NCBI GenBank assembly: GCA_964023275.1 | Contig: OZ029916.1 | Span: 14,066,607 to 14,130,606, forward strand | Length of the DNA stretch: 64,000 nt | Direction: 5' to 3' | Origin: Norana najaformis | Lineage: Eukaryota > Annelida > Clitellata > Crassiclitellata > Hormogastridae | Shown: positions 19,337 through 63,869 of the stretch, piece by piece | Numbering within the stretch: the stretch's first letter is position 1 | Layout: each line of letters starts with the position of its first letter | Position numbers and translations under genes: made by a program | Notes under the pieces: model-generated | Databases searched by the model: none | What the model saw: only the letters and a program-made list of their open reading frames with translations | Told to the model about the DNA's origin: nothing

Positions 19337-19339
19337 TGC

Positions 19340-20898: not shown

Positions 20899-20904
20899 TT
20901 TATT
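20899..20904 (-). promoter_or_regulatory. Candidate polyadenylation signal AATAAA
   Basis: AATAAA begins five bases after the stop codon of the receptor. If used, the 3' UTR would be only about 20-30 nt, so another site further left may serve instead. Confidence 0.35.
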
Positions 20905-20909
20905 ATGAG

Positions 20910-21422
20910 TTAGTGGAACACATTTGGAATATGTAGTTTTTTTGGGTGCTGAATTTCTGCTGCAGGTCGCATGAAGGTTGGAAAAGTCTGCTTTTCTTCA
21001 CCACAATTCAGCAGTGAATCTGTTACATTTGTAGGATTACCGGTATTGGCAGCAGATCTTTCCAGTAGATGGTTACCATCACATGGAACTGTCACTTGAA
21101 GGATGCCTTGTTTTCCATCAACAAGCATCTTCTCTTTCTTTTCAGCATGAATATGATGTCCTTCCTCGTGCTGCATGCAGCTGGCAGTTTCTTTGCCGAT
21201 TTCATTCTGTGATTTATTGTTTTCAGTTTGCTTCGGTGCCTCAGTCTGGGAGTGGATGCCATTTTTCTGCATGTCACAGCAAATGCTGGGAGAGTTGTCT
21301 GGCTTAGTTTCTTCTGTACTTGGTACATTTAATTCCATGTCACGATTTTCAATAGACAGGCTATGTTGAAAAGTATAGGTATCAGGCATGACTGATAGAC
21401 TGTCAGATTTCTCTCTGTCGGA
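20910..21422 (-). CDS. Receptor exon 21: C-terminal tail and stop
   Basis: 513 nt, entered in phase 0 after acceptor TTTAAGCAG, ending at the TAA at 20912-20910. It encodes about 170 hydrophilic residues ([14 protein letters not shown] to PNVFH) with no domain I recognise. The reading frame is open throughout and continues that of exon 20. Confidence 0.8.
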   Translation of the reverse strand, partial: SDREKSDSLSVMPDTYTFQHSLSIENRDMELNVPSTEETKPDNSPSICCDMQKNGIHSQTEAPKQTENNKSQNEIGKETASCMQHEEGHHIHAEKKEKMLVDGKQGILQVTVPCDGNHLLERSAANTGNPTNVTDSLLNCGEEKQTFPTFMRPAAEIQHPKKLHIPNVFH

Positions 21423-24400
21423 CTGCTTAAACATTAAAATCATGAGATTTAATTAAAATCTATGAAGTGACTGTCATATAGTCCACAAGTCAATGGCCTT
21501 ATTTAGGCCAAAAGGTTAAAGGTATCTACCCATGCATAAATTGAGGTTTCAAAGTTGATGAAAGCATGATAGAATATATCTTTGTATGTATGTACATGTA
21601 TGTATGTATGTATGTATGTATGTATGTATGTATGTATGTATGTATGTATGTATGTATGTTATTAAAGCATTCAATACAGCACCTTTATATACCTCTCGAA
21701 AGCACTGCACATGACTATCTAACTTATCTAAACAAAAGCACTTTAAGTTAGTAATCCAACTATGGCCACAAAGTATGCAAGTAGAGGAAATGACTGGCAT
21801 CGTAGAATGACTGCAGTTTATGTTGGCACCTTCTTTTTGTTCTCTGTTTTCTTACCAGAGCTCTTTTATTTATGCCTATTTCTAACAAATTAAAATGCGT
21901 AATTGTGAGGGCATTATATTTTATCCAAAGTTATTTTACCAGGATTTTGCACCAAATACAAACTGACATTCCAGTTTGGTACTGGATATATCCCAAATGA
22001 CTGAGAAGGGTGATTTTGAGTAATCAACCTTCTCGATCATTCAGTTTATATCCAAGTTCAGTGAAAGAAATTGTAAACATTTCCAATTCTTTAAGAATTA
22101 TGCATAGTGCTGGCATAGATTCATTGCTGGCCTATCACTGCCTAACTGTTAAATGAAATAATTAATTGTTCATTTATTATAGGAGTTGTTCATAATGGAA
22201 TAACAATCAGGAAGTAAAGAAATTACAGGCTAACTTATATACTAATTTTTTCTCAAAATATTTTGAACAAGGATGAATGAATGCTTACATACAGTATTTT
22301 CCGGACAATTAGTAATGGTTTCTTACATGAACTTCTAGGGGTGCATCTTATTGAAAGGGGCGACATGTGCAGAAATTTCATACTTTTTTAATCAGATATA
22401 TTTAGCACAGATCAATAAAAAATGAAATAAATCACATTTATTAGAAGCAAAATCTGCACAGCAAATGCAATATTAGGCTTACTACAGCACCATGTGGGTC
22501 AGATAAAAAAGTATGGTACTATTTTGTTAGATTAGATCAAACTTACTACAAATACTGATCATGTAGATCTACAGTAGGTTTAGTTAGTAATGCCTTTGAT
22601 AACTATTAAAGATAGACAGAGTACTGCTGATCTAACAGGGAATGATTGCTGCTTCACTTTGACTTCTCTGATGCTGCCTTTTTAAACATTCCATCTGTCA
22701 CGTACTTTGAAGTCTTGTCACTCCTTAATCACGCTGTCCCTAAATCCTCTCCAATGGACTTGTTTTCTACCATCTGATCGCACACTTGGCCAACTTGTCT
22801 TTTGCTGAAGGCTGTTTTCCATCATGGTTCAAATCTGCATTAGTTATGCCTTTACTTGAAAAACTTGACCTGGACACCAACAACCTCTCAAATTTTAGAC
22901 CCATCTCCAATCTCAATAAAATTTCTAGGATTCTTGAACAACTCTTCCTTACATGGATTAAGCTATACGTTACTTTATCTCCTAACTTCATTGCTTACCA
23001 GCCAGCTTACTGTGAAGGCTACTCCACTGAAACTGCTCTTGTCCTTCTTTGGACAACATCTTAATATGTGACATGAAAATAATTTTTAAGCCAGTGTATT
23101 TATTGAATGCTAATTTAATTTAACCGCTTTTTTCATTGAAAGGACTTGTATGTAGTTTATTTACTTACTTTCCTTTCACGTATGATTGTACATAGCTTAT
23201 TTAGATTATGTTCTTATTGTGTATAGAATAGTGTTATATTTATAGTTCTTGTGAATTAGACTTGTTTATAGTTTATTTCTAGTTTCCTTTCATGTGTGGT
23301 TTATACACAAGCTTATTTCAGTTTGACTGTGTCCTCACTTTGTGTAGGTAATGTTACATTTTATACTTTAATTGTCATCTAACTTTAATCTGTGTTAATA
23401 TTCGAACATTAAGTGAAAATTCAGCCTTTCTGGGTCTACCTTTTGAATTAATTAAGTAATTGTACACTTTCTGTAAAATGTGACATGTTGCATCTGGTAT
23501 TAAAAAAGGAGTTGATGATTTTGATGCTCATGAAATGTGTTAGTGGTCCAATTGGTAAAGCAATTCTGTGGTCCATACATTCCATCTTTGGCTTGATATT
23601 TCCTATCAACCCTGCATAAGTTGAATTCGTTTTTCAGAACCAATTTTGGAATAAATTTTATAACTTATATTATGGTCATACACAGTGATCACCATCAGCA
23701 TCCCAGCAACTTCTGCCATAGATGTCATAAACCAAGTAACAAGGTTTAGCAAAAAAGCAAGCACAAATACATTCCTACAGTCTCAGAATATATCAACATG
23801 ATCACCTGTCCACTTTAGAGCAGGCCATTTTCAATATTTGCAAGTCTGCATAATTATGGTCCTAGTAGAGCAAGTATTATTGTTATTTAGTACCCTGCAA
23901 AAACACTTACTTTATAGAATTTAATCAAAAGAACATAAACAGGAATTTAACAATGATCATACCTCTGAGTGACTGTTTTTCTCCTCGATGCTGACAATGT
24001 CTAGAAGACTGAGGTATATGTTATCAGCTTCATCACTGCCATAAAGTAACTGTGCTGTTTCCACATGATAAGAAGGAGCTTCTTTAATTACGGAAACATA
24101 TTCATAACCAAGTTTCTCTTTAGTGACAATGCCTGGATCGTTTTGTTCCGACAAAATGCACTGAACTTGATCATTGTCTGTTTCAGATTGATGTTCTAAT
24201 GCATTGGTACTATGCTTAGGCTTTTCTTCCACTGGTGAAGTCAGTAACAGCAAAGATGGTTCTCCTTGAACTCTGTCTGCTTTCAGCCTGTCAATATCTT
24301 CTATGGAAAAGGTTGCTTCTCCAGTTACCAAAGTAAAAGGATCCAAGCTATTGCTTTTATCTTTAAAAGAATGGTTTCTGATGAGGACAGTCTTTGTTGC

Positions 24401-27400
24401 TTCAAGTCCTTGGAATTCATTGCAAAAAGCTGAGAGAGTAGCAGGTGCTTGCCCAGAAGTATCCTTCCGGTCCCTAGTTACATTATCCAAGTTATCAAAT
24501 TCTTTTTGCCGAGTTTCCTTTGGTGTATCAAGATTTTCACTTTCTAACGGTTTCAGCTGAATGCCGTTTTCCGTTGCATCAAGTTCATTTTGTGGAGTTG
24601 CTTTTTTAACTTCTTCAAGCACGTTTTCTAAATGATCAAACATTCCTTCTTCTGATGTGATACTGCAGTGTATTTCGGCTGTTGTTACTTCAATCAAAGA
24701 ATCCTTCTTGCTTAGACCTCTGAGTTGTTCTGAATGCACTAATTGCCTGCTAGCATCAGATATGCCTTCTGCAAGATATCCCTTAGTATTTGCTGCAATG
24801 CTTACCTCGATCTGATAAGTGTTCTCAGACATATCATCAGGACTGTGCATCTCAAACTGTGAAATATACTGATCAATTATCAGACTTGAATCTTTATAGA
24901 ATTCTCTAAAGTTCTTGTCAATTTCATGGTCAACAGAATGAAAATTTGCCTGTGTAATACCATGGACTGCAGGCATCAAAGAGCCAGACGTTTCAACAGT
25001 TTTTAGAGTGTTTCCTTCAATTTGCAAATCATTGCTGTATGTTAAAGAATTTTCAAGTGACACAGAAGTTCTCCCTAACTTCTTTCTAACCCAGTGCAAT
25101 AATTTTCTTCCTTTTCTAGACGTCCAGTTCCACTTTCTTGCTGAGATGTGTGAGAATATCTTGATGCAGGCTTGTTGGGTTTTTGTTGTCGACATGTCAA
25201 AATTGGAAGAAGTGATTCTTGTTAAAGAATTTTTCCTAACCAGAGAAGCTACCACCTGTGGATTGTCAGACAAATATATTTTGCGTTTGCTCCTAAATCC
25301 AGCATCAAAGTCGATAGCCATGTCTTTCAAAAGGTCTGGTCTTCTGCCAGAATCCCTCATTGTTTTAGTTTCTGCTAAGTTTTGACTGTTGGACTTGCGG
25401 TCCTGGAGTGTATATCTTGAGCCCAAATTCTCTTCTGAGAAATGGTAAATAATGGGATCTGAAGAGAATTCAGGTAGACCAGGTGTTCTCCCACATTCTT
25501 CTGAATGCTGGTACAGGTACGGATCTGAAGAATATCTCTTTCTTGAGTTCTTCAGTTCCTGTCTTGAATCCACCTGGCATCGCAATTTCTGTAGAGTCTC
25601 CTTTGACATACCCAGGATTCCATCGGGAACCTTTCTTACCCAGTCATCCTCTTCATAATAATCAATTCCTTTAAACAGAATTTCACACATTTTGTTTTTA
25701 CAGATCTGCTTTTCAGACTGAAAAATACAATTGCCCAGTAGATACATTATTGCCAATATGAAAATATACAGAGGGAGGGGAAGGGGCAGGGGGCAGGACA
25801 GACAGAAGAATTTATGCCAGAAAGACATTTATGAAAAATATAAGAGACCAGGCAGTCAAACACAAGCTATTAACATCTCAGTTCCATGGCTAGAATATGG
25901 TCTTATTATAAGAGGCAGTAAAACAAGACAGACAGCATATCATGCAATAAAACGTTTTACCTATAGTCATGAAATTCTGTTGGGATCCAAATGTACGAGA
26001 AAAGCAGTCATTCCATTAAGTAGCATATTGTCTATAATTCATTCCAAAGCAAAGGGGTTAATCACGGAAGCAAATATTTGTGCAATTAGAAGGACTACAT
26101 GTAGACCAGTCATTGGTTTATGTACTCGGAGGACATACAGATGTCATTACATTTGGTAAAAGATTAATTTACTAAAAAACTAGTTTAACCCGGACTTACC
26201 TATGTGTTCCAATTTTTCAATCTCATCTTCAGTTGGGATGTACATGGTAGCTGTGGAAGCAGCTGAGGAAGTTGCTTGTGCATTGGTTACCTTAGCTTCT
26301 GCTTTGGAAGACACCAAGTGATCAGGTTCTTTGAACTTGGATTTTATAGCTTCTGGTCTACTTGAAGAATAACATACAATTTGATTATAAATGCAACAGA
26401 CATTTTAAAATATTCTTCACGATGGTAATGTCCTTATCAGTAATTCCTCAGTTTCTGGCATTCACACTAAATCAATAGTTTCTTGTATGTTTGCACCTGG
26501 ATATTTGTGCGGAGCCTTTAAATTAAGAATCTAAAACATGCTAAAACATGGCCATCTGATAGATCTGACAAGGTGCATGTTAAGATAGGCTGAAAATGTG
26601 AGCTTTTTCAGCAGAATATGATTTTCAATAGACTTTCTTGAGGAAGTTTCACACTAATCTCCATCACTGGTAGGATAGATGAAAACTGCCGAAGAGCAAC
26701 ACAGTTTGTCATATCATTTTAAATGGCATACCCCATCAGTTATAAAACTTTTAATGAACTGCACAGATCTAAAATTCCAATAATCTGGCCTTGGTCACAC
26801 TGAGTTTTTGCATTAAACACTGACTGAAATGGAATAAAGAAATAATACACTTAACTAGTTTGTTTTCACATTAGATTATTGTAAAACTCAGATGAAATGT
26901 TAGAGAATATACAACCACACAAACACTCGTGCTTCAATTGCTGTCAAAGAAAAGATTCCTATTCATATTTGTTTTGATACAACTTTGATTATGTTCTCAA
27001 AAACTCTTTGGATACTAATAGATGAGGAACAAGAACCAAATTTTATATAGAACATAAATGTAAAAACTATAAAAAATGTGCTTTATTTGCTTATAGAGCA
27101 CATAGTATGTTGTTTCCTGTTTAAAAAATTTGAGTCACCTGCGAGTTGTATTGTATCTATCAACTGATCTGGAATATTTTGGTTGCTTCTTTAATTTGGA
27201 TTGGCTACAACAATGTGCTTGAAGACACCACATGGCACCAGTTAGCATAATAAGAAGCAGGAGAAGCACAGAAAGACTAATGATGGCAATTTTCCATGAC
27301 TCCATTCCACCTGGTTTGGCTGTAAGGAAAACAGGCAAAGAAAGGAATTCATTAAAGAACATATCAGAAAAAACGAATCCTTAGACATATCAGACTAACT

Positions 27401-30400
27401 ACAATGTAGTTAACACTTGATGTAATGCCTTTTAAGTACCTCAAAAAACCACTTCTTACACCAGCGTAAATCATGTTAAAGTTCATTTAAGAACAAAAAG
27501 TTCAAGCAGACAAGGCTCAGATAACTAGAAGAGTCACTTGTTTAGAAGAGTTGCTCTGTGAAAATGTCCAGATGCACACCGGCAGGCTCCCACAGAGCCA
27601 TCTGCTCCATGCAGAGCCCAAGCAACGTTCATTCTGTGTGATTGAGTAGATACCAGAAGTTCAGCTACATATTGTTTGTTTTTAAATTCTGCTAATTAAA
27701 TAGGATATTAAACATATTTTTAATTAGCTTAAATTCTTAAATTGCAATAAATCAGTTGCTTATTTGGTGTTTTATGAATGAAGTATTGTTTTTATCACCT
27801 TGACCTATTCATTCTTGGAATTTTATTTAAATAATTTGTTGTATCTACTGGTTAGTCTATTAATGCCCATTTGTTTGTTGCCGGCTAGTTACTTTCCGCA
27901 ATTCCGCAGTGTGCAGTGACCTCCTTCATTTTATAAAAATTCTAACACAGGTACACAACTAATACTGGCCTCCATTGTGCTTAAAAGTTGGTCCGTAAGT
28001 GAAGATTCTTGACTTGTCTTCTTAAAACAATAGTATCTGTCTGTCTCACTCACTGTGCATTATCATATTTGGACTCAGCCAATACCTATTCATTGTGGAT
28101 TCACTGACACCCGACATGATCCATAAACAAGAAACTAGAATCATGCTGCCACACTACTGGCTAAAGCATGCATGTGACTCTGATCAAATGATCATGGCAG
28201 TTGGTAATTGAAATAGCGGAACTGAGGTGGTCATGGAACCGATCCCACGCAATGGGATCTGCACAACAGGAACTTGAATGCCGCCTGCTGTATTATGTAA
28301 ATTTAAAGAAGGGCAGTCCCTTAATCTAACCTCAAGAGGCAGCAACGGTATAAAGTGTTAGCGTCTTCATTAACGCCACAGCCAATCATTGAAACAAGAC
28401 ACTGTCCATTTCAGGAGTCTATATGGGATCAGCAAAACTGACAAGGGGTGTGCATCTGATGCTGATGAGCAACTGTTCAGGCAGTTTATTCATCCAATGC
28501 TTCAAAGGGGATTTTAAACTGCAGTTCTCGAAAACGATCTCCTAGTTTGATGGTCACATGATGACTAAAATCCCATTGGACGAGACAAAAATCATGATGT
28601 CACATTCACACAGCGGGTGTGATTCTAATTTCTGGTTTATGGACACATCAGGTGCAAGTGGATCCATGATGTTACCTATTAGCTCAAACGCCTGTATGTG
28701 GCAAAGTCTCACTGTCACTGTGTTACTAGTTTCAAGCCAACATAATGCTGCACACATAATTGCATACACTGGTCATTATTATTGTACCTCTTTTATGTTC
28801 CCTGTCACATATGTGTTCACAAGCTCTACAACCATCACTTCACATTGTTGCCAGAACAAACTGCTTGATTTTATTTTTTACTGTTCTTCTAATGCCTATT
28901 CCTTTTATTTTATCTAATGAGCTTTGTCTAAACATCTACATGCTTCTGACTCGCTCTGTTTCTTCACCATAACTCCGTTTCTCCAATTCCCCATTTCATC
29001 TAGGTCAAAAACTTACTAGAATTACATATGACTTCTTTGTATTCTGCTATTTCATTCTGATGATATCATTTTCTTCAACTTTAGTATCCATTCTATCTGG
29101 AATAAGTTCCCTCTTTTCAAAACTACATCTTGGATCACCTGGTAGATATTCTCACTTTCAGTCAAACTTGGCTCAAACTGGCTGCCACACTTTCCTTCAT
29201 TTCAGACATTTTACCTCCCTCGATTTCTCTTCTAGATAAACCTAAGGTGGATGGACTTGGTGGCAGAGTTGCTTTCCTTGATAAGACACACCTGAAACTG
29301 GATTGCTCCTCTTCACTCATGTTCCAACCTTGAAGTCATTTAAAATCCTTATCTCTTACCCTGACTCTGGAAATCAGCACCTCCTCTTTATCAATGTTTA
29401 TCATCCTCCTTTTCTTTCACTTTCTTATTTTTTCAATCACTCCTTGAATTCCTGGTCTCGTCTTCGTCTGAACTTATTATAACAGGTGACTTCAGCGTGC
29501 ACCCAAGGACACTCGGAAAAATGTTTCACAGAAGTTTCTAGTTATCCTGCCTGGTTTTGATCTTATGCTGCACATCTCCTTTCCAACTTGTGATATTAGT
29601 CACACAACTGATCTCCTTATAACCCGGTCTAACTCTTCTGATGTCAAAAATATACCTTCTTCTAAATCATATTTGTCTGCCATTACTGCTCATGAGAAGT
29701 CATTAGATTTGATTAGATTAGAATTATTAGATTCCCTTCCAGAGTTGACAGGTGACACCATGCTCAGAGTTTCTGAACTGCACTGCATCAAGGCTGAGGA
29801 ACAAATGATGGCTGATGAATTCCACAGCATATGGTAAACTCACTGTCCAGCAGTTCCTTGTAGATGAGGGGAACAGTAGCTAATAGGTTAGAGCACACAG
29901 CCTGTAATGTAGTGAGTACAGGTTCAAGCCTCCCCTGAGGTGGTTACTGTGTATGGATCTTAAGCAAGTTCTGCACTCATGATTGCTCAGTGCCATGAAA
30001 TGATGCTTAGTCATTAGACAGTGACGCTTAATAAATGCAGAAATAATATTTTAAAATCGAACAAGTCATGGATGGCAGAACTTTTTGTAAATAAATAAAG
30101 GAAGAAGTTGCCAATAAATGATTTTCACTGATGCAACATTTTGAAAGACAGATGCACATATGTAGGCAAGACTGAAAGGGATGTTAAGTAGCAAATCGAC
30201 AAAAATGTAGATACTAGCTTTTAAAAAATCACAGGAAATTCATTATCAGTTTTTACCAGCAAACTGTGTTGAAAACAACATAACCTGGAACAGAAGTGAA
30301 CACTTTGAGATAATGTGTTGAGCCTGAAGTTACATTCCGTATGGTCCCATCTAAAGACTGGTACACTGCTACTGTTCTGATGCAAATGGCATACCAGCAG

Positions 30401-54400: not shown

Positions 54401-57400
54401 GATGAACTAAAACCAAACTGACAGTCTGAAGATGAAATAATAACTGCACATTGACCACCATCTGAAACATAAGGGCCACTGCATCGAACACCAGCAACCT
54501 TAAAAAATTCAAATAAAAAGAGTTACTCAAAATAAACTCAAGAAATTTAAATTACCATAAATACTTGCCTACAAGTCAACAAAATTTTGGACAAATTTGA
54601 AAGTACAAAGTTGGGGGTCACCTTATGCAAGGGTCAACCCAAATTTGCAAAACTCATCCTTCGGAGATCGCAAAACTTAAGCATAGGAGGACATTGATTG
54701 AAGATCGAATGACGTATCCATGGGAGCTCGCACAACACATCTGTGGTAAAGAAGGTCATCTACTGTATAATGTTATAAGCAGACTGTACTATAGAGAATA
54801 AGTTATTAACACATTTAAATGTTTGCTTCAATTATTGGCAACCGAATTCTGCTTGTGAAAGTTCCTGGTTGATCCTGCTTACGTTCTGCGACCAACCGAA
54901 ATCTCATAGTTCCAAAGATTTACACTGCATTTGGCTCTCGTGGATTTTGTTATTCTTGCCCCACAGGGTGAAATGCCTTACTGACTAGCATCAAGGATGA
55001 CACTCTTCCTATAACAAGTTTTAAAAAGAAGCTTAAAACTTACACGTTTAATAGGTCTGCCTCGATTTCTGTGCATTCCTATTGATCTATATATAAACCA
55101 ATGATATACTCAATATTACTCAGTAGAACTATTTTAGCGTCGTTGCATGCGCCTTTGAGGCTGTTGTTAATCTGCATGCGTTATAAAAGTCTGTTTAATA
55201 ATAATAATAATAATAATTAATAACAAAACATCAGGTAGAATAAAATAAGAATGTGTTGCATTAAAACCATGCAGGCATCCATCATCAGACAGCAGCTCTT
55301 ATTTATCGTTCTTTTTTGAATCGGTGCTGGGCTTTCTATCCAAGGCAAGATCTTTTGTTTATACAGCGGCAGAGTGCTTTGGCGCTATGAATGGATATTT
55401 GTGTTTGCCTTTCTTTACAACTTTCCTTACTTCAGTTGATCGTCAGTGAGTTGAGAAACCTGAGCTGATAAGAACATATTTATCAGTTAGTCAAGTAAAT
55501 TCTTAGAGAGCAATTTTGGCTGCTCTAACCTGTAAATGCAAATGTTTTACATATGACGCTGGGTTCAAATAAAAGTTGATGAGCAACCAGAGGCTACAAA
55601 CAACTGTGGAGTGGAGCGGCATGTCAGTTTGGCATTTCTGAAAGGCTTGTGAGAGACTGGCACAAACAAAAGAGCACTCTTAAAGAAATGCCAAAGATAA
55701 AACAGCATCCAAAATTTATGAGGCTTCCTAACTTGAAACGGAGAAGGCAGTGACTGACTGGATCACCAAATCTCAGCAGAACAGTCTTATTGTAACTAAA
55801 ATGGCAATTTGTTTGCATCCACTAAAAATGCGTAACAAATCGACATCTTAAAATGGTCTGTTAGTTGCATCTATTTTTTTCTGTGTTAGCCGGTTGGTGT
55901 ACAAGACTTATGAACAGATATAATCTTATGCTCCACCAATGCACAAAAATTGCTCAAAGCTGCCCAAAGCTTTGGAGAAAAGTTGATTTGTTTCTAAAAT
56001 TAATCTTTGCAAAAAGCACAGCTATGAGATATCCCAGATCGGCAATATGGATGAAATGCCAATGACATTTGACCGGCCTGGGAATCGGACTGTAAATGTT
56101 GTAGGAGAAAGTACATTCTGGTCAAAACTATTAGCTCTGAATGGACTTCAAAGGGGTTCTTGGTTGTAGCAGATGGGAAGAAACTCAACCAATGGTTATT
56201 TTAAGCAAAATACTTTGCAAAAGGAATAACATTTCTAAGAGATGTGATTGTAAAATATCATCTCAAAGGTTGGAAGGACAAGGATGGAATGAAGGACTGG
56301 TTGGAACATGGGTGGAACACATCGTCAGGTGCACTGCTCAAGAAAAGAGGCATGCTAGTGTGGGCATCTTCCATACACACTTGACCAATCAAAATGCAAA
56401 CAATTAAACACAGATAATTATGTAAGCCACGGCAGTTAATTTGTGTGCTACAACCTTTGGACGTTTGCCTGAACAATCTGCTTAAAGACTGTGTCCTTAA
56501 ATTTTGGATAGAGTGGGCAGTAAAGTGGGCATGGCAATGTTAACCAAAAGTGGAAAAATGAAGAAAAATGATTTGCCTTTGGTTTGTGAATGGGTGAATC
56601 ACCTGGAATGATTTGTCTAGACAGATGGTAGAGCAATCATTTTTAAGATGTGGCATCATTTATGCCAAGGACAGTTCCTAAGATGATGTTACCTACAAAA
56701 CTTATAGTATAATCTAATGCAGAAGACAAAACTGACATTAATGCGGATGCCCCAAAATTAACAGAAGAGAAATTTAATTTACTTTTTAATGACGATGACG
56801 ATAATAATTCTGAATTTGAAGGTTTTGATTAAATCTGCTGTTTTATAAACAAATGTTAAATGGTATTGTTAGTTTGCCTAGTCTATTTAAAAAATGTTCA
56901 ATTAGTGCCATAAGATTTTGCTTTCTAATCTAATCTAATCTAATGACTTCTATAGTGCCATTATCATAATGCCCAAAGCATCAGTTAATGGTCGCTTCAA
57001 GTTAAAATCACAATCCAAAATCATAATCCACTGGAGAAGCTGGGTTGAAATCCTTCCTCTATATATTTTGGATTCCTTGTCCTGATTGCTGTAACTTCTG
57101 CAGTGATTTTAAAAATGGAAACAGTAAGTCAGCAATTAATTGCAAGACACCCATAAGTGGCAAAAATTTTGTTTTATTGTAGGCTGTTAATCTTAATTTA
57201 GAAATTACATAAACTTATAATTTTGAAGGTAACATGATTAGAAACTGATCACTGGTAGATGTTGGATGACGCTCTATTTTTGGGCAAGAGTTTGTGCAGC
57301 TCAGGTTCCCATCTTAGGGTCTAACTAAGACCATGCCTTTAGTTGGTGTTTAAAAGTGCTATAAAATGTCAAAAAATTATTGTAAAAATTCGCATTGACT

Positions 57401-60400
57401 TACACATGGGTCATAGATTTTCCCCTTTCCAAGGTCAAAAATTTACGGTCGACTTATATGCGATGTTGCATTACAGGCAAGTAATTATGGTATATGAAAA
57501 ATCAAACATACTCTACGAACTTGTAGCCTAAAACACATCTTGTCAACAGAAGATCTTGCACTGCAAAGTGCAGAAAAACATATCAAGATAAACTGCTCCC
57601 TCAAGTGGCATTTGTCACTTGCCTGCCTTCTCAATCACCCATTCAAAATGACTGAACCATCTCTTATTCTCACTCACTGCCTCCATCCATTCATAAATGA
57701 TGACCTGAATGAATGAACAGATCCGTTCAGTCATTCATTCACTTTTTCACTACCACTTGCTCGTTTAAGACCATAGACTAATATTTTGTGCAAGATCTTC
57801 TGTTGACTAATATTTTAATTCATCAGAGACTTAAATAGTGTGTGCTTACACTGCCAGAGAAGTTGGTCCCAGCCACTGGATGCTGAGTACAATCCCAAAG
57901 GCTTGCTTCAGTGCCATTGCAACTGAAGACAAATGGAAGAGTAAGAGGATTTGAGGAGAATATCAAATCTCCAGTCAACTACAAAACATGGCAGAAATCA
58001 ACAAATCTACAAACTGCCTGCCAACTGTCATGACAATGAACCTTAAAATCTCTTTGTTGCAAACTCAGAGAGAAGTAAATGAAACTTTGTTTAACCACTG
58101 AAGCTTTCTTGATTTACAAAGGCTCAAATTAAAAATAAAAAAGCATACATAAATTGAAGACCATAAATAACACAGGTAAGAGACAAATCTCTGCTCTAAT
58201 TTGCTCTTAGACAATTCACTAGTGGAATGATCGAAGTAAGGCAGTCAGAGGATTTGGCTTAGGAGTAAAGCCAAAGACTAAAGACAGCATCTGTAACACA
58301 ATGATATCAGCAGATGCACTTTTAGAAATGCACATAAAATGACGTTTGTTAGGGAGGCTAATTCATATTCATTAATTAATATTAATTAATATTATTACAT
58401 ACAAAGGCTTACATATTAATGTTCCTAAACTTTTTCAGACCTCATTTTGCTACACGACTGATTCAGAAAATCTACAACACCACACTGCAGGTCTGTCTAC
58501 CAATGTCTGAACAAGTTCCTTGTGTTAATTAATAGCACTGAAAGGCATAGTATCACTGCACATAAGTGAGCCCATGAACAGCTGTACTGTATATTTCCAA
58601 AGTCTCTGTGATAAAATAATGTCAGGCCTAGATGTAGCTAGCCTAAAAATCACACTTCAATATCCCATTTACTATCGTAGTGAAAACACCGGGGAAAGTG
58701 TTGATTTGAGAAAAGCAAGCAAACCTAGGTGAAGCTCAAGGACTGCTGTTGACATGATGCTGTCTGTTTAGACAAGACTTGTTTTCATTATGGACAAGAC
58801 AGTCATGCTATTCAGCTGCATATTTAACAACACTGTTACACAACACAAAGACACTACTGCATTTTCAAAAAGGCCTCACCTAGAAATCTTGTGTAAACAC
58901 TATCCTCAACACTACACTTACAAGCAGAGCATGGCCAAGTCCCAACTGACGACAAACCACTTCTGCCTCTTTAAGAGTCCAAGGCATGGCACACAGCTGA
59001 CCCCACACATCTATACATCACAAAATATACAAGCTATTTTGAATGCCAAATGAAAATAATAATAAAAACAGGGTAATAATAAATAAAAAGACAAATTTAT
59101 TCTATACGTCTAATTCTGAAAAAGACATTGAATAGATCTTGGGCAACAATTAAATACAACTGGAATTGGAGCTACTGATAACAAGCAAAATAAATGATTT
59201 ATCATGGAGATAATGATGAATGATAATAAAATGCATTAGAGTCAGGTGGATGCTGTGGTTAAGACCAGCTCCAATCAAGGGTTAAATTCCTGTTTGAAAA
59301 TGCTAAAAATTATTTGCATTGGCATTGACTGAAAATATGGCTACTGAAAAGAACTATGCTCACTGTCAATGAATAATTCAACTCGGCCTTCAAAAGGGTT
59401 GAGTCCACCTGTGATTCGTATGGTGGTAGCAGTAGGCTGACTGATGGCAATCATGTTCTGTCCACAGTCCCTAACACACTCTCCCTCCTTGAAGAAGAAC
59501 CCACTCTCGCATACAGAACAGAACTGGAATGAATAACAAACGGAACAAAATGGCCGACATGGTTGACACAATCCCGAGGATAAATCTCCAAAAAATCCCT
59601 TCAGACAGGACAGAACACAGTTCTGAGAAACTGGAAAAAACCCTGAGCTGCATTCTGAAATGCAGCGGTTCATCTGAAGGAAGAAGGAATTCACGCAAGA
59701 GGAACAGTATGTTCCACCTAAATAACAGTTCAAGCAGTTGATGTCAGAACAGCGCCGACAAACGTGCATCACATCAGAGAAATAACCAAGTGGGCAATTA
59801 TTCAGGCAGGAAAATGGCAAGAGAGCTGGGTCAGAAGAAACCAGAAGCACCATTTCAGAAGCACACCCTGTACAGTTGTCCTTAAGCTGTGAACAACTCG
59901 AACATTCTGGCAGACAAACCTCACATCTGCCAGCAAACTCAAAGAATCCAACTGGACATCTCTGAATGCAGACACTCTGACCATCTGCCTCATGGAAAAA
60001 AGTTCCCACTGGGCAATGACCGAAACACTGCCCGCCATGTAGCACAAGACCATCAACACACGACACACAGACATCGCTTTGGACTCCATTACGACAAGAT
60101 TGGCAGCCAGAGCTGCAAGGTTCGCATGCACCGGTAGTCAAGTTCCCATGGTAACCCAAGGGGCAAGAGGCAACACAGCGGCCATAGAAGTCAACCCACA
60201 GATCCTGTTCACACTTTGAACACTGTTGGCCAGTTGGTTCACAAGCAAGGCAGTCTGACAATGGGCAGTCTGTACAGAGGCCACTTGCATCAACATGCTG
60301 ACCGAATGGACATGTGGCCACACATTGCTGACCAACAACTGGACCTGAACATCGGACTCCAATGCTTTCAGAGTCCTCACAGTTGTGATGGCCAAAGTGT

Positions 60401-62510
60401 GAATGATTGCAGAGGAAGAAGGACTTGTCATTTGCAGAACATAAAACATCATCAAAGCCTATGGGAAATGAAGCTAAGTTTGGCTTTAAGGAACCATAGG
60501 CGAGGAAAAAGACAATTCCTCGACCAAGACCCATTTCCCTGCAGACAACATCCGTGTTTGTCATGGTCCAGTTGTCATCACAAACTGCCCACCAGGTTCT
60601 ATGATAGTAGACCCTCAGCTGACCTTCAAGAGAACTGGAATTTCCAGACGACTGTAGTCGAAGTCGTCTGCTATTGCCAGATGTCACCAGTGAAAGAGAT
60701 GAACAGTTCTGGCACATTCCACCAACTCGGGAAAGTAGGCTGTTGTTTGGGATGTAGCCGTACCCACTGACACACGAGGTACATGGATTGTTGACATCAT
60801 CAGCCATTTCCAGACAAGTATTGCAAGTGGAGGGACACAACAAGCAGCTTCCATTACCAACATACAGATACTGGGAAATGTTTGGACACTGAGCAGCTGC
60901 CTCAGCACCGAAACTCTCTGAAACAAGAAAAACAATTACATAATTTCGTGTAATTAATCATGAAACTGTAATCATGAATGTACTATAAAAGCATCTCTTA
61001 AGGCCTTTCAGATAGCTCAGTGTTCAATATCATGGTTAAACTGTAGCATTTAGTGTAAAAGAAGATTTAGATAGCACCACTTCAAGATATCTTACTTCCC
61101 AGTGTTAATAAAGCAGCAAACCAGTGATGCCAGTGATAACGAACCATTAACAAAGTACCAACAGTCAGAGGCAATCATTTTTACAACTCATCAGCAGCAT
61201 ATGCAGTCTTTCTCTTCGCATTCATGCATTGACCTTGCAGGGACCAAAATCCTGTTATCAGACAAAATTAAAACTCTCAGTGTCACCACCGACAACTCGC
61301 TCACTATGACTTCACACATATCTTCTATTGGTAGGTCTTGTTTCTACCATATCAGGGCATTTTGTTACATCAGGCATTATCTGATAGATGGCAATGCTAG
61401 GACAATTGCATGTGCACTCGATGATTCTCGATTAGACTATGCAAAAGTGGTGTCATGTGGTATAACCTCTTTTAACCTAAAAAAGCTCCAGATGGTTCGA
61501 AATTCTCTTTCTAGGTTTGGTACATCTTCATCTTCATCATTAAATGCATTAGATCACCTCCATAAACTCAAATGGCTTCCAGATGAACAGTGTATTAATT
61601 TAAGATTGCATGCTTGACCTTTTAATCCAAAAATACCAACCTTCCATAATATCTTTATACATTGCTAATCATAGTGCCTTCCAAGACTGTTGCATTCTTC
61701 TGATACTGGCTTCTTGCTAGAACCTAAGTTCAGGACAAATGTATGATCATGTGCTTTTAGCTGCTGTGCTCCTCATATTTGGAATTGTCTACCACAAAAG
61801 GTCCAACTTGCCAAATCATTTTCATCATTTAAATCAGTTGTCAAGACTCACTATTTTACTCTGGCTTTTGCATAACTCCATAAGATGGCCCCATAGCGAA
61901 CGTGCATCCGTGCCTCAGATTCAGATTTACTGACCTTGTGCGCATTAAAAGTGTTTTTAATAAAAACAATAAATAAATAAAACGAGTCTATCAACAAAAA
62001 GTAGAAACTCACAAAAATACCAAATCATGCAAATTTTAGATGAAGAAGGCACAACCATAAGATCCTGTTTGCTCAAACCCTAAGTGTTGCATAAAAGAAA
62101 GAAGGAAATGAGCAGCTGATGTAAGACCTTTCTTTAACTGTAAAGTACAGTGTGTGACAAAGTGAGATAATCAACAGAACGTGAACAGAGTTCACCTGGA
62201 TAAAAACAACAGGTGTGGTATCTGTTCCATCTTTTCCTTTATTAGATACCAGCACCATGCACACAGCCTGGCATTTAATGAAAACAATGGTCACTCTGGA
62301 TATCAATGCATGGACATCATTATTACATTCTGGACATTATCATTAAATTCTGCAACATATAATACAATACAACACAACTGTAATTTGATGCCCTTCTTAC
62401 AAAGTCACAAATGGTTGAAGATTGATAGAAAAACTGTTTTAAGATTGTTTAACATACATGTACTTACCAAAATGCAAAATAGTCTGTAGCCATACTAGGA
62501 CAAGAATCAT
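20910..62510 (-). CDS. Large type I transmembrane receptor: SRCR, furin-like, Ig and FN3-like domains
   Basis: Twenty-one coding exons join on the minus strand: 62510-62468, 60917-59364, 59010-58922, 57978-57850, 54498-54297, 52996-52828, 51251-51127, 48537-48415, 46828-46682, 46401-46250, 43824-43704, 42010-41850, 40325-40208, 38130-37990, 37268-37104, 36769-36571, 33612-33500, 27319-27139, 26360-26200, 25668-23963, 21422-20910. Intron phases agree at every junction and the total is 6,312 nt including the stop, about 2,103 residues. Approximate domains: signal peptide 1-20, Cys-rich 25-90, SRCR1 98-207, furin-like repeats 209-505, SRCR2 511-614, Cys-rich 615-672, Ig1 675-770, Ig2 771-860, Ig3 861-951, Ig4 952-1044, Ig5 1045-1146, FN3-like 1147-1250, transmembrane 1259-1283, cytoplasmic tail to 2103. 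No family name is assigned. A cell-surface adhesion or recognition role is inferred from the domains. Least certain are the exon 17/18 join and the weak donors of exons 12 and 16. Confidence 0.85.
21583..21660. repeat. (ATGT)n microsatellite in receptor intron 20
   Basis: About 18 TATG units with one interruption (TGTACATG). Confidence 0.95.
22690..23062 (+). mobile_element. CR1/L2-like LINE fragment, start of RT
   Basis: Reads [38 protein letters not shown] and [13 protein letters not shown]. The fragment ends abruptly. It lies in intron 20, opposite to the gene. Confidence 0.8.
23963..25668 (-). CDS. Receptor exon 20: main cytoplasmic tail
   Basis: 1,706 nt, phase 1 in and phase 0 out, donor GTATGA. 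It encodes residues about 1365-1933, hydrophilic and probably disordered, with no kinase, phosphatase, death or SH2 domain that I recognise. Visible features are an acidic Tyr start (IDYYEEDDW), two copies of SSDPxxYxxSEE (about 1411 and 1433), a Trp- and Lys-rich basic stretch (about 1541-1564), and a C-terminal Tyr cluster ([21 protein letters not shown]; about 1884-1933) that could bind SH2 proteins. The acceptor TTTAAAG is weak but is the one that keeps frame with exon 19; the open frame continues upstream to 25828, but that part reads as intron. Confidence 0.85.
26200..26360 (-). CDS. Receptor exon 19: juxtamembrane cytoplasmic segment
   Basis: 161 nt, phase 2 in and phase 1 out, donor GTAAGT. 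It encodes a low-complexity Ser/Ala-rich segment ending [17 protein letters not shown]. Two in-frame acceptors three bases apart (after 26361 and 26358) would differ by one residue. Confidence 0.8.
27139..27319 (-). CDS. Receptor exon 18: transmembrane helix
   Basis: 181 nt, phase 1 in and phase 2 out, acceptor TTCCTTACAG and donor GTGACT. It encodes [10 protein letters not shown], then a hydrophobic helix of about 25 residues ([18 protein letters not shown] and onward), then a Cys- and Lys-rich stop-transfer end ([17 protein letters not shown]). Orientation is type I because a signal peptide lies far upstream. Confidence 0.9.
27415..27540 (-). repeat. LINE-3'-end-like repeat, copy 1 of 3
   Basis: GCCTTTTAAGTACCTC to GGCTCAGATAACTAGAAGAG is alignable by eye with 35115-35300 and 44025-44205. 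All three copies have the same orientation. Confidence 0.6.
27640..28770. other. Part of receptor intron 17, nothing recognised
   Basis: No exon with the right phase (0 to 1) was found here for the uncertain exon 17/18 junction. Confidence 0.4.
29020..29770 (+). mobile_element. CR1/L2-like LINE fragment, AP-endonuclease domain
   Basis: Broken frames read [32 protein letters not shown], an ITGDFS-like block near 29480, and [20 protein letters not shown], the order of an AP endonuclease of CR1/L2 elements. A related fragment is at 42150-42850. Confidence 0.75.
29866..30050 (+). mobile_element. tRNA-derived SINE, second copy of the 16.59-kb family
   Basis: A-box-like TAGCTAATAGGTTAGAGCAC and B box AGGTTCAAGCCTCCCC, then GTCATTAGACAGTGACGCTT and AATAAATGCAGAAATAAT at the end, as in the 16.6-kb copy. 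Confidence 0.75.
30560..31050 (-). mobile_element. LINE C-terminal and 3' fragment
   Basis: The minus-strand frame reads [16 protein letters not shown] and [16 protein letters not shown], a decayed LHWLPVxFRIxFKI block. The 30580-30750 part is shared with 11815-12010. Confidence 0.65.
31312..31885 (+). mobile_element. LINE C-terminal copy inserted in an older repeat
   Basis: 31340-31815 matches the last 0.5 kb of the 4.1-kb LINE ([57 protein letters not shown]). The flanks (31312-31340 and 31820-31885, ending in ATTAGATTAGATTAG) match the two halves of the repeat at 56927-57060, which lacks the LINE. Confidence 0.8.
32582..32606. repeat. (ATG)n microsatellite
   Basis: Eight ATG/GAT units next to the SINE to its right, perhaps derived from its tail. 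Confidence 0.9.
32608..32805 (-). mobile_element. tRNA-derived SINE, minus strand
   Basis: Read on the minus strand it starts GTGGTGTAGTGGTATGGTTG (A box), then GTTGTGGGTTTGAATCTGCC (B box), and continues through GGGAAACCACCTCACTCATC to the (CAT)n tract. Confidence 0.75.
33500..33612 (-). CDS. Receptor exon 17: FN3-like region, second part
   Basis: Phase 2 in, acceptor TTCTTAG. It encodes [16 protein letters not shown] and [18 protein letters not shown]; the VxGDGxxY motif is seen in RPTP membrane-proximal FN3-like segments. Two overlapping donors exist. A cut after 33500 leaves phase 1 and joins the transmembrane exon directly. A cut after 33498 uses a better GTAAGT but leaves phase 0 and would need one more exon that I could not find. 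Confidence 0.7.
34380..34545 (+). mobile_element. LINE- or SINE-3'-end-like remnant with (GAAT)n tail
   Basis: GGAGGAGTGCAATATAAATG followed by CTCCCAATAAATGAATAAG and (GAAT)n resembles a non-LTR element 3' end. No coding part was recognised. Confidence 0.4.
34760..34850 (-). mobile_element. LINE 3' end remnant
   Basis: On the minus strand it reads GGTGCCTTTGATGAG-like sequence then AAAGTGGCACTGTACAATTT, like the 3' end of the 4.1-kb LINE. Confidence 0.55.
35115..35300 (-). repeat. LINE-3'-end-like repeat, copy 2 of 3
   Basis: TTAATATAGCGCCTTTTAGATA to GTCATCACTTGTGGGCTCC matches the copies at 27.4 and 44.0 kb. The repeat may run on to about 35620. Confidence 0.6.
35654..36227. mobile_element. 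574-bp MITE with pogo/Tigger-like ends
   Basis: Ends are CAGTGCGGTTGCATTAACGCG and, inverted, CAGTGCAGACTCGTTAACGCG, flanked on both sides by TA. Further in, GTATGTCCCC and the inverse GGCATGTCTCCCC continue the inverted symmetry. There is no coding capacity. CpG-rich compared with its surroundings and sharply bounded, so it may be fairly young. Located in intron 16. Confidence 0.85.
36571..36769 (-). CDS. Receptor exon 16: FN3/RPTP-ectodomain-like region, first part
   Basis: 199 nt, phase 1 in and phase 2 out. It starts [13 protein letters not shown] and contains [10 protein letters not shown], a pattern reminiscent of the membrane-proximal fibronectin-III-like region of receptor protein tyrosine phosphatases. 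The assignment is by resemblance only. The donor AAA|GTTAGT is weak, like that of exon 12. Confidence 0.65.
37104..37268 (-). CDS. Receptor exon 15: Ig5, second half (Cys replaced)
   Basis: 165 nt, phase 1 at both ends, acceptor TATTTCAG and donor GTGAGT. It encodes [18 protein letters not shown] and [17 protein letters not shown], a clear Ig E-G region. The GxYxC cysteine position reads Val (GNYTV). Confidence 0.85.
37990..38130 (-). CDS. Receptor exon 14: Ig5, first half (Cys replaced)
   Basis: 141 nt, phase 1 at both ends, donor GTGAGT. It encodes [25 protein letters not shown] and [12 protein letters not shown]. The alignable B-strand cysteine is a tryptophan (codon TGG), while the C-strand Trp (VWYRNG) is kept. 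Confidence 0.8.
38955..39215 (+). mobile_element. tRNA-derived SINE
   Basis: A-box-like CAGTAGCACATTTGGTCTGT, anticodon-arm-like AATCAAAAGATTGCAGG, B-box-like GCAGGTCTGAGCCTGCTGG. Positioned in intron 13. Confidence 0.6.
39444..39548 (+). repeat. 52-bp tandem duplication
   Basis: ATTAAACCTAACAAACCC appears twice, 52 bp apart, each followed by GTGTTTGATAATGGTA. Confidence 0.85.
40080..40145 (+). mobile_element. LINE 3' end remnant
   Basis: TTGAAGTGGCACTATATAAA then TTCCAATTACAATTA, the same 3' end type as at 2.64-2.75 kb. It lies just outside exon 13. Confidence 0.6.
40208..40325 (-). CDS. Receptor exon 13: Ig4, second half
   Basis: 118 nt, phase 0 in and phase 1 out. It encodes [20 protein letters not shown], the E-F strands and the second Cys of Ig4. 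Acceptor is TGTTTAG, donor GTCAGG. Confidence 0.8.
41751..41812 (-). other. Exon-like 62-nt cassette between receptor exons 12 and 13
   Basis: It has a good acceptor (TTTTACTTAG) and donor (CAG|GTAAAT) and an open frame ([20 protein letters not shown]). Its length is not a multiple of three. Inclusion after exon 12 would create a TAA at the first full codon of exon 13. It may be a poison exon or a chance match. Confidence 0.35.
41850..42010 (-). CDS. Receptor exon 12: Ig4, first half
   Basis: 161 nt, phase 1 in and phase 0 out. It encodes [19 protein letters not shown] and [10 protein letters not shown], the first half of Ig4. The donor AAA|GTTAGA is weak. Direct joining to exon 13 restores a 40-residue Trp-to-Cys spacing equal to that of Ig2, which supports this end. 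Confidence 0.75.
42150..42850 (+). mobile_element. CR1/L2-like LINE fragment, AP-endonuclease domain
   Basis: Broken frames align by eye with the 29.0-29.8 kb copy: the TTGACTCTGGAAATTGGCAC segment, [20 protein letters not shown], and [10 protein letters not shown]-like end. Located in intron 11. Confidence 0.7.
42880..43225 (+). mobile_element. LINE C-terminal and 3' end fragment
   Basis: Contains decayed LHWLPV and FWYDLP blocks (43070-43100) and a 3' end GTGAGGTTTTTAAAATGTGC, similar to 640-670 and 46130-46165. Confidence 0.65.
43704..43824 (-). CDS. Receptor exon 11: Ig3, second half
   Basis: 121 nt, phase 0 in and phase 1 out. It encodes [21 protein letters not shown], cut here to its key residues: GTL, SSGFYKC and AQN. 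It ends VTVT. Donor is GTGAGA. Confidence 0.85.
44025..44205 (-). repeat. LINE-3'-end-like repeat, copy 3 of 3
   Basis: TTAATATAGCACCTTCTAAG to GTCGCCACTGGTGGGCTAC, matching copies at 27.4 and 35.1 kb. Confidence 0.65.
44206..44760 (+). mobile_element. LINE C-terminal fragment
   Basis: Frames read [31 protein letters not shown] and [20 protein letters not shown], the post-RT region of CR1/L2 elements, with a stop and shifts. Confidence 0.75.
45850..46175 (+). mobile_element. LINE C-terminal and 3' end fragment
   Basis: Ends GTTAGGTTCTTAAAAGGTGC then CATATAAATA, the same 3' end type as at 43.2 kb, preceded by a [18 protein letters not shown] remnant of the WNxLP block. Confidence 0.6.
46250..46401 (-). 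CDS. Receptor exon 10: Ig3, first half
   Basis: 152 nt, phase 1 in and phase 0 out. It encodes [29 protein letters not shown], the B-C region of an Ig domain with Cys and Trp. The donor GTAACT is somewhat weak, but exon 11 follows in frame. Confidence 0.8.
46682..46828 (-). CDS. Receptor exon 9: Ig2, second half
   Basis: 147 nt, phase 1 at both ends. It encodes [13 protein letters not shown] and ends ANITVK. The spacing from the Trp of exon 8 to this Cys is about 40 residues, normal for the fold. Donor is GTAAAG. Confidence 0.85.
48415..48537 (-). CDS. Receptor exon 8: Ig2, first half
   Basis: 123 nt, phase 1 at both ends, acceptor TTTTTTTAG and donor GTAGGT. It encodes [10 protein letters not shown] and VTWFKDG, the first half of an I-set-like Ig domain. 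Confidence 0.8.
48726..48910 (+). repeat. 37-bp minisatellite, five units
   Basis: Units of AGTTGGGCTGCTTATAAGG plus GTNTTATCAATTGTCAGG repeat five times with a few substitutions. Located in intron 7. Confidence 0.95.
49400..49960 (+). mobile_element. RTE-like LINE C-terminal fragment
   Basis: Reads [29 protein letters not shown], then in other frames remnants of the KLxLYRxY...C region. This order is typical of RTE-type elements, unlike the CR1/L2 copies elsewhere. Confidence 0.6.
50390..50890 (-). mobile_element. RTE-like LINE C-terminal fragment
   Basis: On the minus strand it reads [35 protein letters not shown] and, later, GRPWLHWICK-like and [11 protein letters not shown]-like blocks with breaks. 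These mark the C-terminus of RTE-type elements. Confidence 0.7.
51127..51251 (-). CDS. Receptor exon 7: Ig1, second half
   Basis: 125 nt, phase 2 in and phase 1 out. It encodes GTLTIFQPS and [12 protein letters not shown], the E-F strands with the second disulfide cysteine, closing Ig1. Donor is GTATGA. Confidence 0.85.
51780..52065 (+). mobile_element. LINE C-terminal fragment
   Basis: Reads [13 protein letters not shown] and [15 protein letters not shown], the WNxLP and FKxxLKTxLF blocks, followed by a short 3' end. Confidence 0.65.
52085..52470 (+). mobile_element. LINE C-terminal fragment
   Basis: Reads [17 protein letters not shown] and a decayed [10 protein letters not shown] block, with a 3' end similar to that of the previous copy. 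A related piece ends the window at 63870-64000. Confidence 0.5.
52828..52996 (-). CDS. Receptor exon 6: Ig1, first half
   Basis: 169 nt, phase 1 in and phase 2 out, acceptor TTGCAG and donor GTGAGT. It encodes the B- and C-strand part of an Ig domain: VLPCPVSN and [10 protein letters not shown], giving the first disulfide cysteine and the invariant tryptophan. Confidence 0.85.
53250..54100. other. Unassigned insertion-like segment in intron 5
   Basis: More GC- and CT-rich than its surroundings, with a (CT)n tract at 53792-53813. C-rich stretches with shared words (CCTTCCTCCCC, GTCTGCAT) lie on both sides at about 53140-53220 and 54125-54230. I cannot name a family. Confidence 0.3.
54297..54498 (-). 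CDS. Receptor exon 5: end of SRCR2 and Cys-rich linker
   Basis: 202 nt, phase 0 in and phase 1 out, donor GTGAGC. It starts with VAGVRCSGP, the typical C-terminus of an SRCR domain, and continues with a Cys-rich segment ([29 protein letters not shown]) resembling furin-like or ephrin-receptor-like Cys repeats. It joins SRCR2 to the first Ig domain. Confidence 0.8.
54840..55218 (+). mobile_element. LINE C-terminal fragment nested in the pogo element
   Basis: Reads [35 protein letters not shown] and ends with an (AAT)n tail at 55196-55218. Confidence 0.75.
56927..57060 (-). mobile_element. Short non-LTR repeat with (ATTAG)n tail
   Basis: On the minus strand it reads AACCCAGCTTCTCCAGTGG through GGCACTATAGAAGTC to ATTAGATTAGATTAGATTAG. 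It is the uninterrupted version of the repeat at 31312-31885. Confidence 0.7.
57850..57978 (-). CDS. Receptor exon 4: SRCR2, later part
   Basis: 129 nt, phase 0 at both ends, acceptor TTTGTAG and donor GTAAGC. It encodes [13 protein letters not shown] followed by [13 protein letters not shown], the C-terminal half of SRCR2. At the place where group A domains normally have the HNC cysteine this reads TNF, so one cysteine of the usual six is missing. Confidence 0.8.
57990..58915. other. Receptor intron 3, nothing recognised
   Basis: Short ATTAATATTAATTAATATTA tract near 58375. No further exon found. Confidence 0.5.
58922..59010 (-). CDS. Receptor exon 3: SRCR2 core
   Basis: A short 89-nt exon that is easily missed. 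It encodes [10 protein letters not shown] and [15 protein letters not shown], the conserved middle of an SRCR domain. It is entered in phase 1 and left in phase 0, exactly what the flanking exons need. Acceptor is GTATAG, donor is GTAAGT. Without it SRCR2 would lack its WGxxC and VVCRQLG motifs. Confidence 0.85.
59364..60917 (-). CDS. Receptor exon 2: Cys-rich start, SRCR1, furin-like repeats, start of SRCR2
   Basis: This 1,554-nt exon is phase 1 at both ends, with acceptor TTTCAG and donor GTGAGC. It encodes a short CxxC-rich segment, then SRCR domain 1 with the hallmarks [19 protein letters not shown] and IGVRCSG and six cysteines, the group A pattern. It continues with about 300 residues of furin-like repeats of the form CPxGYxxD..C..C...C..C, of the kind found in receptor tyrosine kinase ectodomains and furins. 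The exon ends inside SRCR2 just after [18 protein letters not shown]. Several NxS/T sites suggest glycosylation. SRCR1 lies in one exon while SRCR2 is split over four. Confidence 0.9.
61150..61980 (+). mobile_element. CR1/L2-like LINE, post-RT region and 3' end
   Basis: Reads [51 protein letters not shown] and HKLKWLP, then a decayed WNCLPQKV block and an (AATAA)n-like tail. Inserted opposite to the gene in intron 1. Confidence 0.8.
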
Positions 62511-62603: not shown

Positions 62604-63224
62604 AGCAGCTTTCACCACACCACACAGCTCCACCATCCCACACCAAAGATGCCGACTTACTGGTACCAAAAAAGCTGAATGAGGCAATCCCGTGAAATGC
62701 TGCACTACCAGTGAAGCAATTGGTGTACACCAGGTAATATGAATCACTCGACCATGTCTGATTAGGCCAAACATCTGCTGATCAGCATTCTAATGATCAC
62801 TGGCTAGTGCACATTCGCTTGACATGGCCACGCATGCAAGAATAGGAAACATGGAACTCTGCACATGTACAGTAAATATGCAGGTGCTGAGAAGTGCCAG
62901 GATAATCAGTTCTTACATTACATTACACAGAACTTAGATATAATCTCAACCACTATCTCTGTTCTACCCAACGTGTGACACCAGAAAACAACAGATAACA
63001 TATGGCTTACGGTGAATTTTAACTTTGCAACAATATATACAGTTAAAGGCAGCTTATATGCTGACAATTTTTCTTCACGTTTCACTCTCTCAGTTAAAAG
63101 ACTATAATATTAAATTGATTATCAAATTTATGTTAAAAGTTTCTTTATTCTTATCTGTTACTTTTATGATTTGGAGAATATATCAAAAAATATACTGCGA
63201 ACATAACATTGCGCTGCTTAGTCC

Positions 63225-63670: not shown

Positions 63671-63869
63671 ATTCTGAGTCCAGAGCTGTAACTAAAACAT
63701 CAAAATTTCAACACATTACCCTCCATACTGCAATCATGACTTCGTACTGAACAAAGAATACAGTTTAAAACACATCTAACAGATGACAAAGTAATACACA
63801 ATGGGCAGCCGACTTATATTTAATCTTTGCTTGCCCCTTGGATTAAAAAATATTGCCAAGCCAGAACAG

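Follow-up and report, generated by a model that had tools for sequence, protein, structure and literature searches.

A single intact gene on the minus strand of the Norana najaformis window (the whole stretch analysed, 64,000 nucleotides, C4:14066607-14130606, from an assembly of 608,420,607 bases in 17 contigs) probably encodes a type I single-pass recognition or adhesion receptor with an adaptor-binding cytoplasmic tail, built by phase-1 exon shuffling; no close paralog of the gene was found among the genome candidates scored. Its exons run from 62510 to 20910 and splice into one type I membrane protein, which in our final, hand-adjusted model comprises 2,137 residues encoded by 22 exons (Table 1). 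The initial annotation had described one mosaic SRCR/furin/Ig receptor gene of 21 exons and 2,103 residues. The mosaic is confirmed, with Pfam matches to the SRCR, furin-like and Ig domains on the spliced protein, and a single gene is favoured; the outline agrees with ours and both ends do so exactly, while the exon count and length are revised.

The minus strand holds three long stop-to-stop frames (538 codons, 60957-59344; 623 codons, 25828-23960; 180 codons, 21452-20913), with short frames carrying Ig and SRCR signatures between them. Exons were chained by dynamic programming with generic splice matrices and a codon bias trained on the three long frames, which are exons of the same gene. 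Without guidance the chainer returned 16 and 7 exons, among them the large ones and some of those for the Ig domains; when segments recognised by eye were given a bonus, it returned 43, 22 and 21 exons at intron penalties of -9, -12 and -15, respectively. Chains at the low penalty (43 exons at -9) were over-split and were discarded. The stricter runs received four hand edits: exon 1 was set at 62510, exon 6 was given acceptor 52996 and exon 17 donor 33500, and exon 18 was added. For the first exon the chainer had chosen 62274-62250 at -12 and -15, and at -9 it had treated 62528-62468 as internal; the ATG exon at 62510 was placed manually on account of its hydrophobic sequence and a donor scoring 5.7. 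Acceptor 52996 was preferred as the stronger of two sites; the earlier start of exon 6 would add 25 residues. Omitting exon 18 gives 21 exons and 2,115 residues, and its longer form gives 2,165 residues, so that alternative exon boundaries set a predicted protein length of about 2,115-2,190 residues. The TAA stop ends at 20910, and an AATAAA starts six bases beyond it.

Table 1. Exons of the receptor gene in window coordinates, with encoded features and support.
Exon	Position	Strand	Encoded feature	Support
1	62468..62510	-	ATG and signal peptide (14 residues)	hand-placed; hydrophobic N-terminus; donor in phase 1; in phase with acceptor 60917 (score 8.2)
2	59364..60917	-	Cys-rich half repeat, SRCR1 (residues 106-205), ~5-6 furin-like repeats, start of SRCR2	538-codon frame
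3	58922..59010	-	SRCR2, piece two (23-residue stretch)	spliced SRCR2, 73.3 bits
4	57850..57978	-	SRCR2, piece three	spliced SRCR2, 73.3 bits
5	54297..54498	-	SRCR2 end and short Cys-rich stretch	donor 5.0, phase 1; spliced SRCR2 E = 2.2e-20, profile 2-100/100
6	52828..52996	-	Ig1, first half	acceptor 52996 or 53071, each phase 1; Ig_3 8.5e-8 with exon 7
7	51127..51251	-	Ig1, second half	Pfam, joined to exon 6
8	48391..48537	-	Ig2, first half	I-set 1.2e-8 with exon 9
9	46682..46828	-	Ig2, second half	Pfam, joined to exon 8
10	46241..46401	-	Ig3, first half	Ig_3 9.3e-16 with exon 11
11	43704..43824	-	Ig3, second half	Pfam, joined to exon 10
12	41850..42010	-	Ig4, first half	I-set 3.2e-13 with exon 13
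13	40202..40325	-	Ig4, second half	Pfam, joined to exon 12
14	37990..38130	-	Ig5, first half, without cysteine	I-set 9.4e-7 with exon 15
15	37104..37268	-	Ig5, second half	Pfam, joined to exon 14
16	36571..36769	-	membrane-proximal, family-less	coding score 7.1, acceptor 5.4; no Pfam or PDB match
17	33500..33612	-	membrane-proximal (15-residue stretch)	acceptor 6.6; donor 33500 or 33498
18	30285..30350	-	uncertain; start 30350 or 30432, or skipped	options phase-compatible; absent from guided chainer picks
19	27139..27319	-	transmembrane helix and juxtamembrane start	hydropathy maximum 2.7; acceptor 7.3, donor 6.3
20	26200..26357	-	cytoplasmic	donor 7.1, coding score 6.1
21	23963..25668	-	cytoplasmic tail, 569 residues, with twofold SSDPxxYxxSEE	623-codon frame; coding score 67.9 (in training set)
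22	20910..21422	-	tail end and stop	coding score 26.9 (in training set); AATAAA at 20904

Several further elements lie in and around the gene. The intron between exons 3 and 4 contains an SRCR-like fragment (58113-57982, minus strand; a 13-residue stretch), possibly a chance resemblance or a relict or alternative exon, and the last intron carries a simple CATA repeat (21590-21660). Upstream of the gene, 63160-63710 consists of low-complexity, repeat-like frames. A reverse transcriptase domain (PF00078, E = 5.4e-24; 4681-5418, plus strand) sits in a retrotransposon-like remnant (4125-5980, plus strand), and similar-looking fragments at 4125-4721, 31342-31773 and 22744-23061 on the plus strand and at 18827-19354 on the minus strand have no Pfam match.

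In Pfam, the spliced protein matches SRCR (E = 1.3e-39, two stretches), Ig_3 (3.1e-49, five stretches), I-set (4.8e-48, five stretches) and Furin-like_2 (4.7e-15, three stretches). From the N-terminus, a signal peptide and half a Cys-rich, furin-like repeat precede SRCR1; furin-like repeats then lead to SRCR2, and a short link rich in cysteine leads to the five Ig domains, after which come an orphan segment, a single transmembrane helix (approximately residues 1296-1316) and the tail. The order of the SRCR, furin-like and Ig modules given in the initial annotation is supported by Pfam both on the spliced protein and on the domains taken apart. Superfamily membership is clear for both SRCR domains (73.6 bits for SRCR1 and 73.3 for SRCR2, against a Pfam cut-off of 26.1) and for all five Ig domains, each of which, scanned apart, exceeds at least one Pfam cut-off; the furin block also passes. 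Exon 2 alone matches SRCR (1.8e-20) and Furin-like_2 (2.8e-20) in Pfam, and in the PDB its SRCR1 matches SRCR receptors and its furin block R-spondins; a single-sequence AlphaFold prediction of this exon (517 aa) was uninformative (mean pLDDT 38.4). The furin-like block contains 46 cysteines within residues 206-505, and the ectodomain carries 30 N-glycosylation sequons.

Group A SRCR domains are defined by six conserved cysteines, as described in passages of PMC10855680; SRCR1 has all six and SRCR2 five. Ig5 is without any cysteine. When SRCR1 is aligned to the second SRCR domain of CD163, the acidic positions in CDDNW, FDDVLC and CEDSE are kept; SRCR2 is without these acids. In MARCO, CD163 and DMBT1, acids at these positions are involved in binding both cation and ligand.

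The membrane-proximal residues 1160-1285 match nothing in Pfam or the PDB. The FN3-like modules included in the initial annotation are not upheld: an FN3 reading of this segment found nothing in Pfam (two sequence versions, E up to 10) or in the PDB. A ten-residue stretch within it looked similar to the membrane-proximal domains of receptor phosphatases, a resemblance that we dropped because neither Pfam nor the PDB returned a match.

Splice phase supports the exon chain. With the strongest donor and acceptor taken for each exon core and phase ignored, 17 of the 21 junctions are compatible (binomial P = 1.0e-5 against an expectation of 1/3); exon cores and frames come from the model, so the test checks phase and not existence. 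The four misses (10 to 11, 13 to 14, 18 to 19 and 20 to 21) each have a weaker neighbouring site that is compatible. SRCR2, spread over four exons (2-5), and each Ig domain, spread over two, pass a curated Pfam cut-off as spliced units; that these domains score whole supports junctions 2-3, 3-4, 4-5, 6-7, 8-9, 10-11, 12-13 and 14-15. All eight introns that the model places between modules (signal peptide, SRCR/furin block, Ig1 to Ig5, membrane-proximal segment and transmembrane exon) are in phase 1, two of them (13-14 and 18-19) resting on sites other than the strongest. Phase-1 introns between modules are the usual mark of shuffled extracellular modules.

The join between exons 5 and 6, where SRCR gives way to Ig, bears on whether the locus is one gene or two. 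Two adjacent genes, a secreted SRCR/furin protein (exons 1-5) followed by an Ig/transmembrane receptor (exons 6-22), would account for the facts that no domain crosses intron 5, that the frame of exon 5, if read onward, ends at a stop five codons later and that an AATAAA lies in the intron at 53632. Against this arrangement, intron 5 spans only 1,300 bases, less than 13 of the 20 other introns (model range 280-3,351 bases), including the 3,351-base intron within SRCR2, and at the thresholds used it contains no start with a hydrophobic N-terminus and a phase-1 donor. Its sole donor candidate (score 5.0) and the best of nine acceptors (5.0) are both good and both in phase 1. We consider two genes improbable, and the single gene assumed in the initial annotation is favoured by this sequence evidence.

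The tail comprises 820 residues after the transmembrane helix. Against Pfam (whole tail, E up to 10) it matches no family, including no kinase or phosphatase, TIR or Death domain, and 621 of its 820 residues searched against the PDB gave only chance-level matches (klotho, 0.47 and worse); both searches agree with the earlier statement that the tail is without kinase or phosphatase. Exon 21 searched alone against NCBIfam hit one bacterial model at chance level (13.1 bits against a cut-off of 270). The description of the tail as tyrosine-bearing does not hold as a signature: among its 22 tyrosines there are three YxxPhi motifs (5.0 expected), one YxxL/I (3.0 expected), no ITAM and one ITIM (1.1 expected), none of them beyond chance. 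Signalling through the tail is thus an assumption, since no tyrosine motif is enriched. A 12-residue element, SSDPxxYxxSEE, occurs twice, at residues 1445 and 1467, 22 residues apart, and one copy lies in the only match to a 14-3-3-like motif, RYSSDP (0.02 expected, P = 0.02, uncorrected for the 16 motifs tested). By charge and hydropathy the tail falls slightly beyond the Uversky boundary, into the disordered range (7 of 8 blocks of 100 residues), and the ectodomain lies on the ordered side. A single-sequence AlphaFold prediction for 568 aa, the greater part of the tail exon, was uninformative (mean pLDDT 32.5).

Among known receptors, those of the Robo/DCC/Dscam type share with the worm protein a chain of I-set Ig domains, one transmembrane helix and a long non-catalytic tail, and Dscam (2e-43) and Robo2 (4.7e-41) are among the best Ig-type PDB matches, with E-values summed over several stretches. 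The worm receptor differs from them in having no detected FN3, an SRCR/furin head and a tail that matches no known family. The Robo family has five Ig and three FN3 domains as well as cytoplasmic CC motifs; in the worm protein Pfam finds no FN3 at E up to 10. With CD163, DMBT1 and other SRCR proteins it shares SRCR domains with conserved cysteines and the acidic positions of SRCR1, its own SRCR domains being two of many modules alongside furin-like and Ig domains. CD163 chains top the PDB list for SRCR1 because the scores of several domains add up; among readable single-domain scores, a DMBT1 chain (61.3 bits) lies slightly above the second SRCR domain of CD163 (58.4 bits). R-spondins share the furin-like repeats, and R-spondin-2 is the best PDB match of the furin block (1.1e-10). 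R-spondins are secreted and have two furin repeats and a TSP1 domain, whereas the worm protein is a membrane receptor with SRCR and Ig domains and more repeats, has a transmembrane helix and shows no TSP1 in Pfam, so that the similarity is one of generic repeats only.

SRCR and Ig domains in one protein are not themselves new, since both Olavius algarvensis and mouse provide examples. In this oligochaete, SRCR transcripts occur 'often in association with' immunoglobulin and other domains (passages of PMC5117596), and mouse FcRLS combines Ig with an SRCR domain, of type B according to a figure legend (PMC12250417); the worm receptor has in common with both that SRCR and Ig lie in one polypeptide, and the type B SRCR sets FcRLS apart. 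Across 29 animals, 123 partner domains are counted for 1,747 SRCR genes (PMC10855680), and diverse SRCR partner domains are reported from amphioxus (PMC2575513). The main text of PMC10855680 uses 'furin' zero times and 'immunoglobulin' once, in a comparison. The exact architecture was not found described in the titles and abstract openings covered by the literature search; tables or figures of SRCR partner domains are in the supplements of PMC10855680, PMC2575513 and PMC5117596. The literature pairing SRCR with furin-like concerns, by title, mostly proteases, viral entry and other unrelated subjects.

The gene apparently has no close paralog of its tail, furin block or Ig part among the candidates scored in the genome. 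A 586-aa tail-exon query, with 3 of 3 candidates scored, had no match other than itself. For the SRCR/furin exon there were 82 matches (82 of 351 candidates scored): its own locus and 81 further places, all overlapping SRCR1, with 45% identity over 66 residues in the best of them. Furin-like_2 occurs at six places in the genome, three within the receptor gene and the rest on C7 (one) and C11 (two). The Ig-transmembrane part gave 41 matches (66 of 282 candidates scored), of which 14 were counted as its own exons and the other 27 have at most 38% identity; the best non-self match by E-value (25% identity), at C5:38599385-38600509, lies in a single 2,194-codon frame with Ig domains. Viral contigs scanned with the SRCR/furin exon yielded no confirmed relative.

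The SRCR family as a whole has at least 153 matches in the genome (150 of 508 candidates scored). Among those listed, 24 lie outside C2, and the C2 matches all fall within 36.35-39.01 Mb: a large SRCR array thus occupies part of C2, and the receptor gene does not belong to it. The array contains copies of equal or near-equal score at regular spacing (about 1.38 kb near 36.57 Mb and about 1.59 kb near 36.49 Mb); compared by score and spacing, it looks like a recent SRCR expansion in this annelid. By eye, no close SRCR-Ig adjacency was seen elsewhere among the listed SRCR and I-set matches (I-set, 150 of 2,117 candidates scored), a weak comparison because split Ig exons are missed and the gene's own Ig domains are absent from the I-set list. 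Profile searches of the genome matched innexins (73), which in such number point to a protostome, and erythrocruorin linkers (29, best 8.1e-32), and many weak matches to the linker C-domain cluster in short open frames at C5:36.72-36.88 Mb. The innexin and linker matches together indicate an annelid. Queries for GFP and mollusc haemocyanin, each run without a positive control, gave 0 matches. Giant extracellular haemoglobins are produced exclusively by annelids, as stated in a passage of PMC5117596.

These data bear on what kind of receptor the gene encodes. Membership in an innate arsenal of SRCR pattern-recognition molecules, binding microbes and triggering uptake or signalling, would fit a common immune module: both SRCR domains have PDB matches to SRCR chains of immune and scavenger proteins (CD163, CD5L, DMBT1, MARCO and others), SRCR genes are expanded in this genome, and oligochaete SRCR mosaics are discussed as immune recognition molecules in passages of PMC5117596. 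The gene nevertheless stands apart from the C2 array, has no close paralog among the scored candidates and ends in a tail with no ITAM and without TIR, Death or any other Pfam domain, and we regard this role as possible though doubtful. Far less credible is a degenerate receptor kinase or phosphatase that has lost its enzyme domain. The Ig chain, transmembrane helix and long tail are of the right kind, and MuSK and LAR-type phosphatases figure among the many Ig matches; however, the tail retains no kinase or phosphatase trace in Pfam (E up to 10) or the PDB (621 of 820 residues), which also sets the protein apart from receptor tyrosine kinases and LAR-type phosphatases as such, and the top-ranked Ig-type matches are Dscam, Robo and titin. 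Titin has a kinase and is not a receptor. Between a fixed partner, in adhesion or development, and a diversified immune role, the former appears more likely, as the position outside the SRCR array and the lack of close paralogs suggest.

The recognition or adhesion receptor that we prefer agrees with the role first proposed for this gene, which we likewise infer from the domain anatomy. Such a receptor would have been assembled by phase-1 exon shuffling. The SRCR1/furin head may be its ligand-binding end, to judge from the acidic positions kept in SRCR1 and lost in SRCR2, with the Ig chain acting as a stalk or spacer, an adhesive surface, or both. The flexible tail could recruit adaptors to short motifs, as in the catalysis-free Ig receptors Robo or DCC. 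More speculatively, the gene may represent a receptor family, single-copy in annelids or in spiralians at large, whose ectodomain is fixed as SRCR-furin-SRCR-Ig5 and whose tail is an orphan; the SRCR1/furin head would bind a dedicated ligand in a cation-dependent way, and the twofold SSDPxxYxxSEE element would recruit a partner, possibly a 14-3-3-like phospho-serine reader; we put this forward tentatively.

At present the gene adds one more mosaic receptor, with a function deduced from its parts, to the already known kind of mosaic SRCR receptors. It is an apparent clean case of exon shuffling, in which a new receptor arose from phase-1 modules, and it has apparently been kept as one copy while the genome multiplies SRCR genes elsewhere. 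If orthologues share its domain order, it would define a kind of invertebrate receptor that has no name yet, with a cytoplasmic tail still to be explored.
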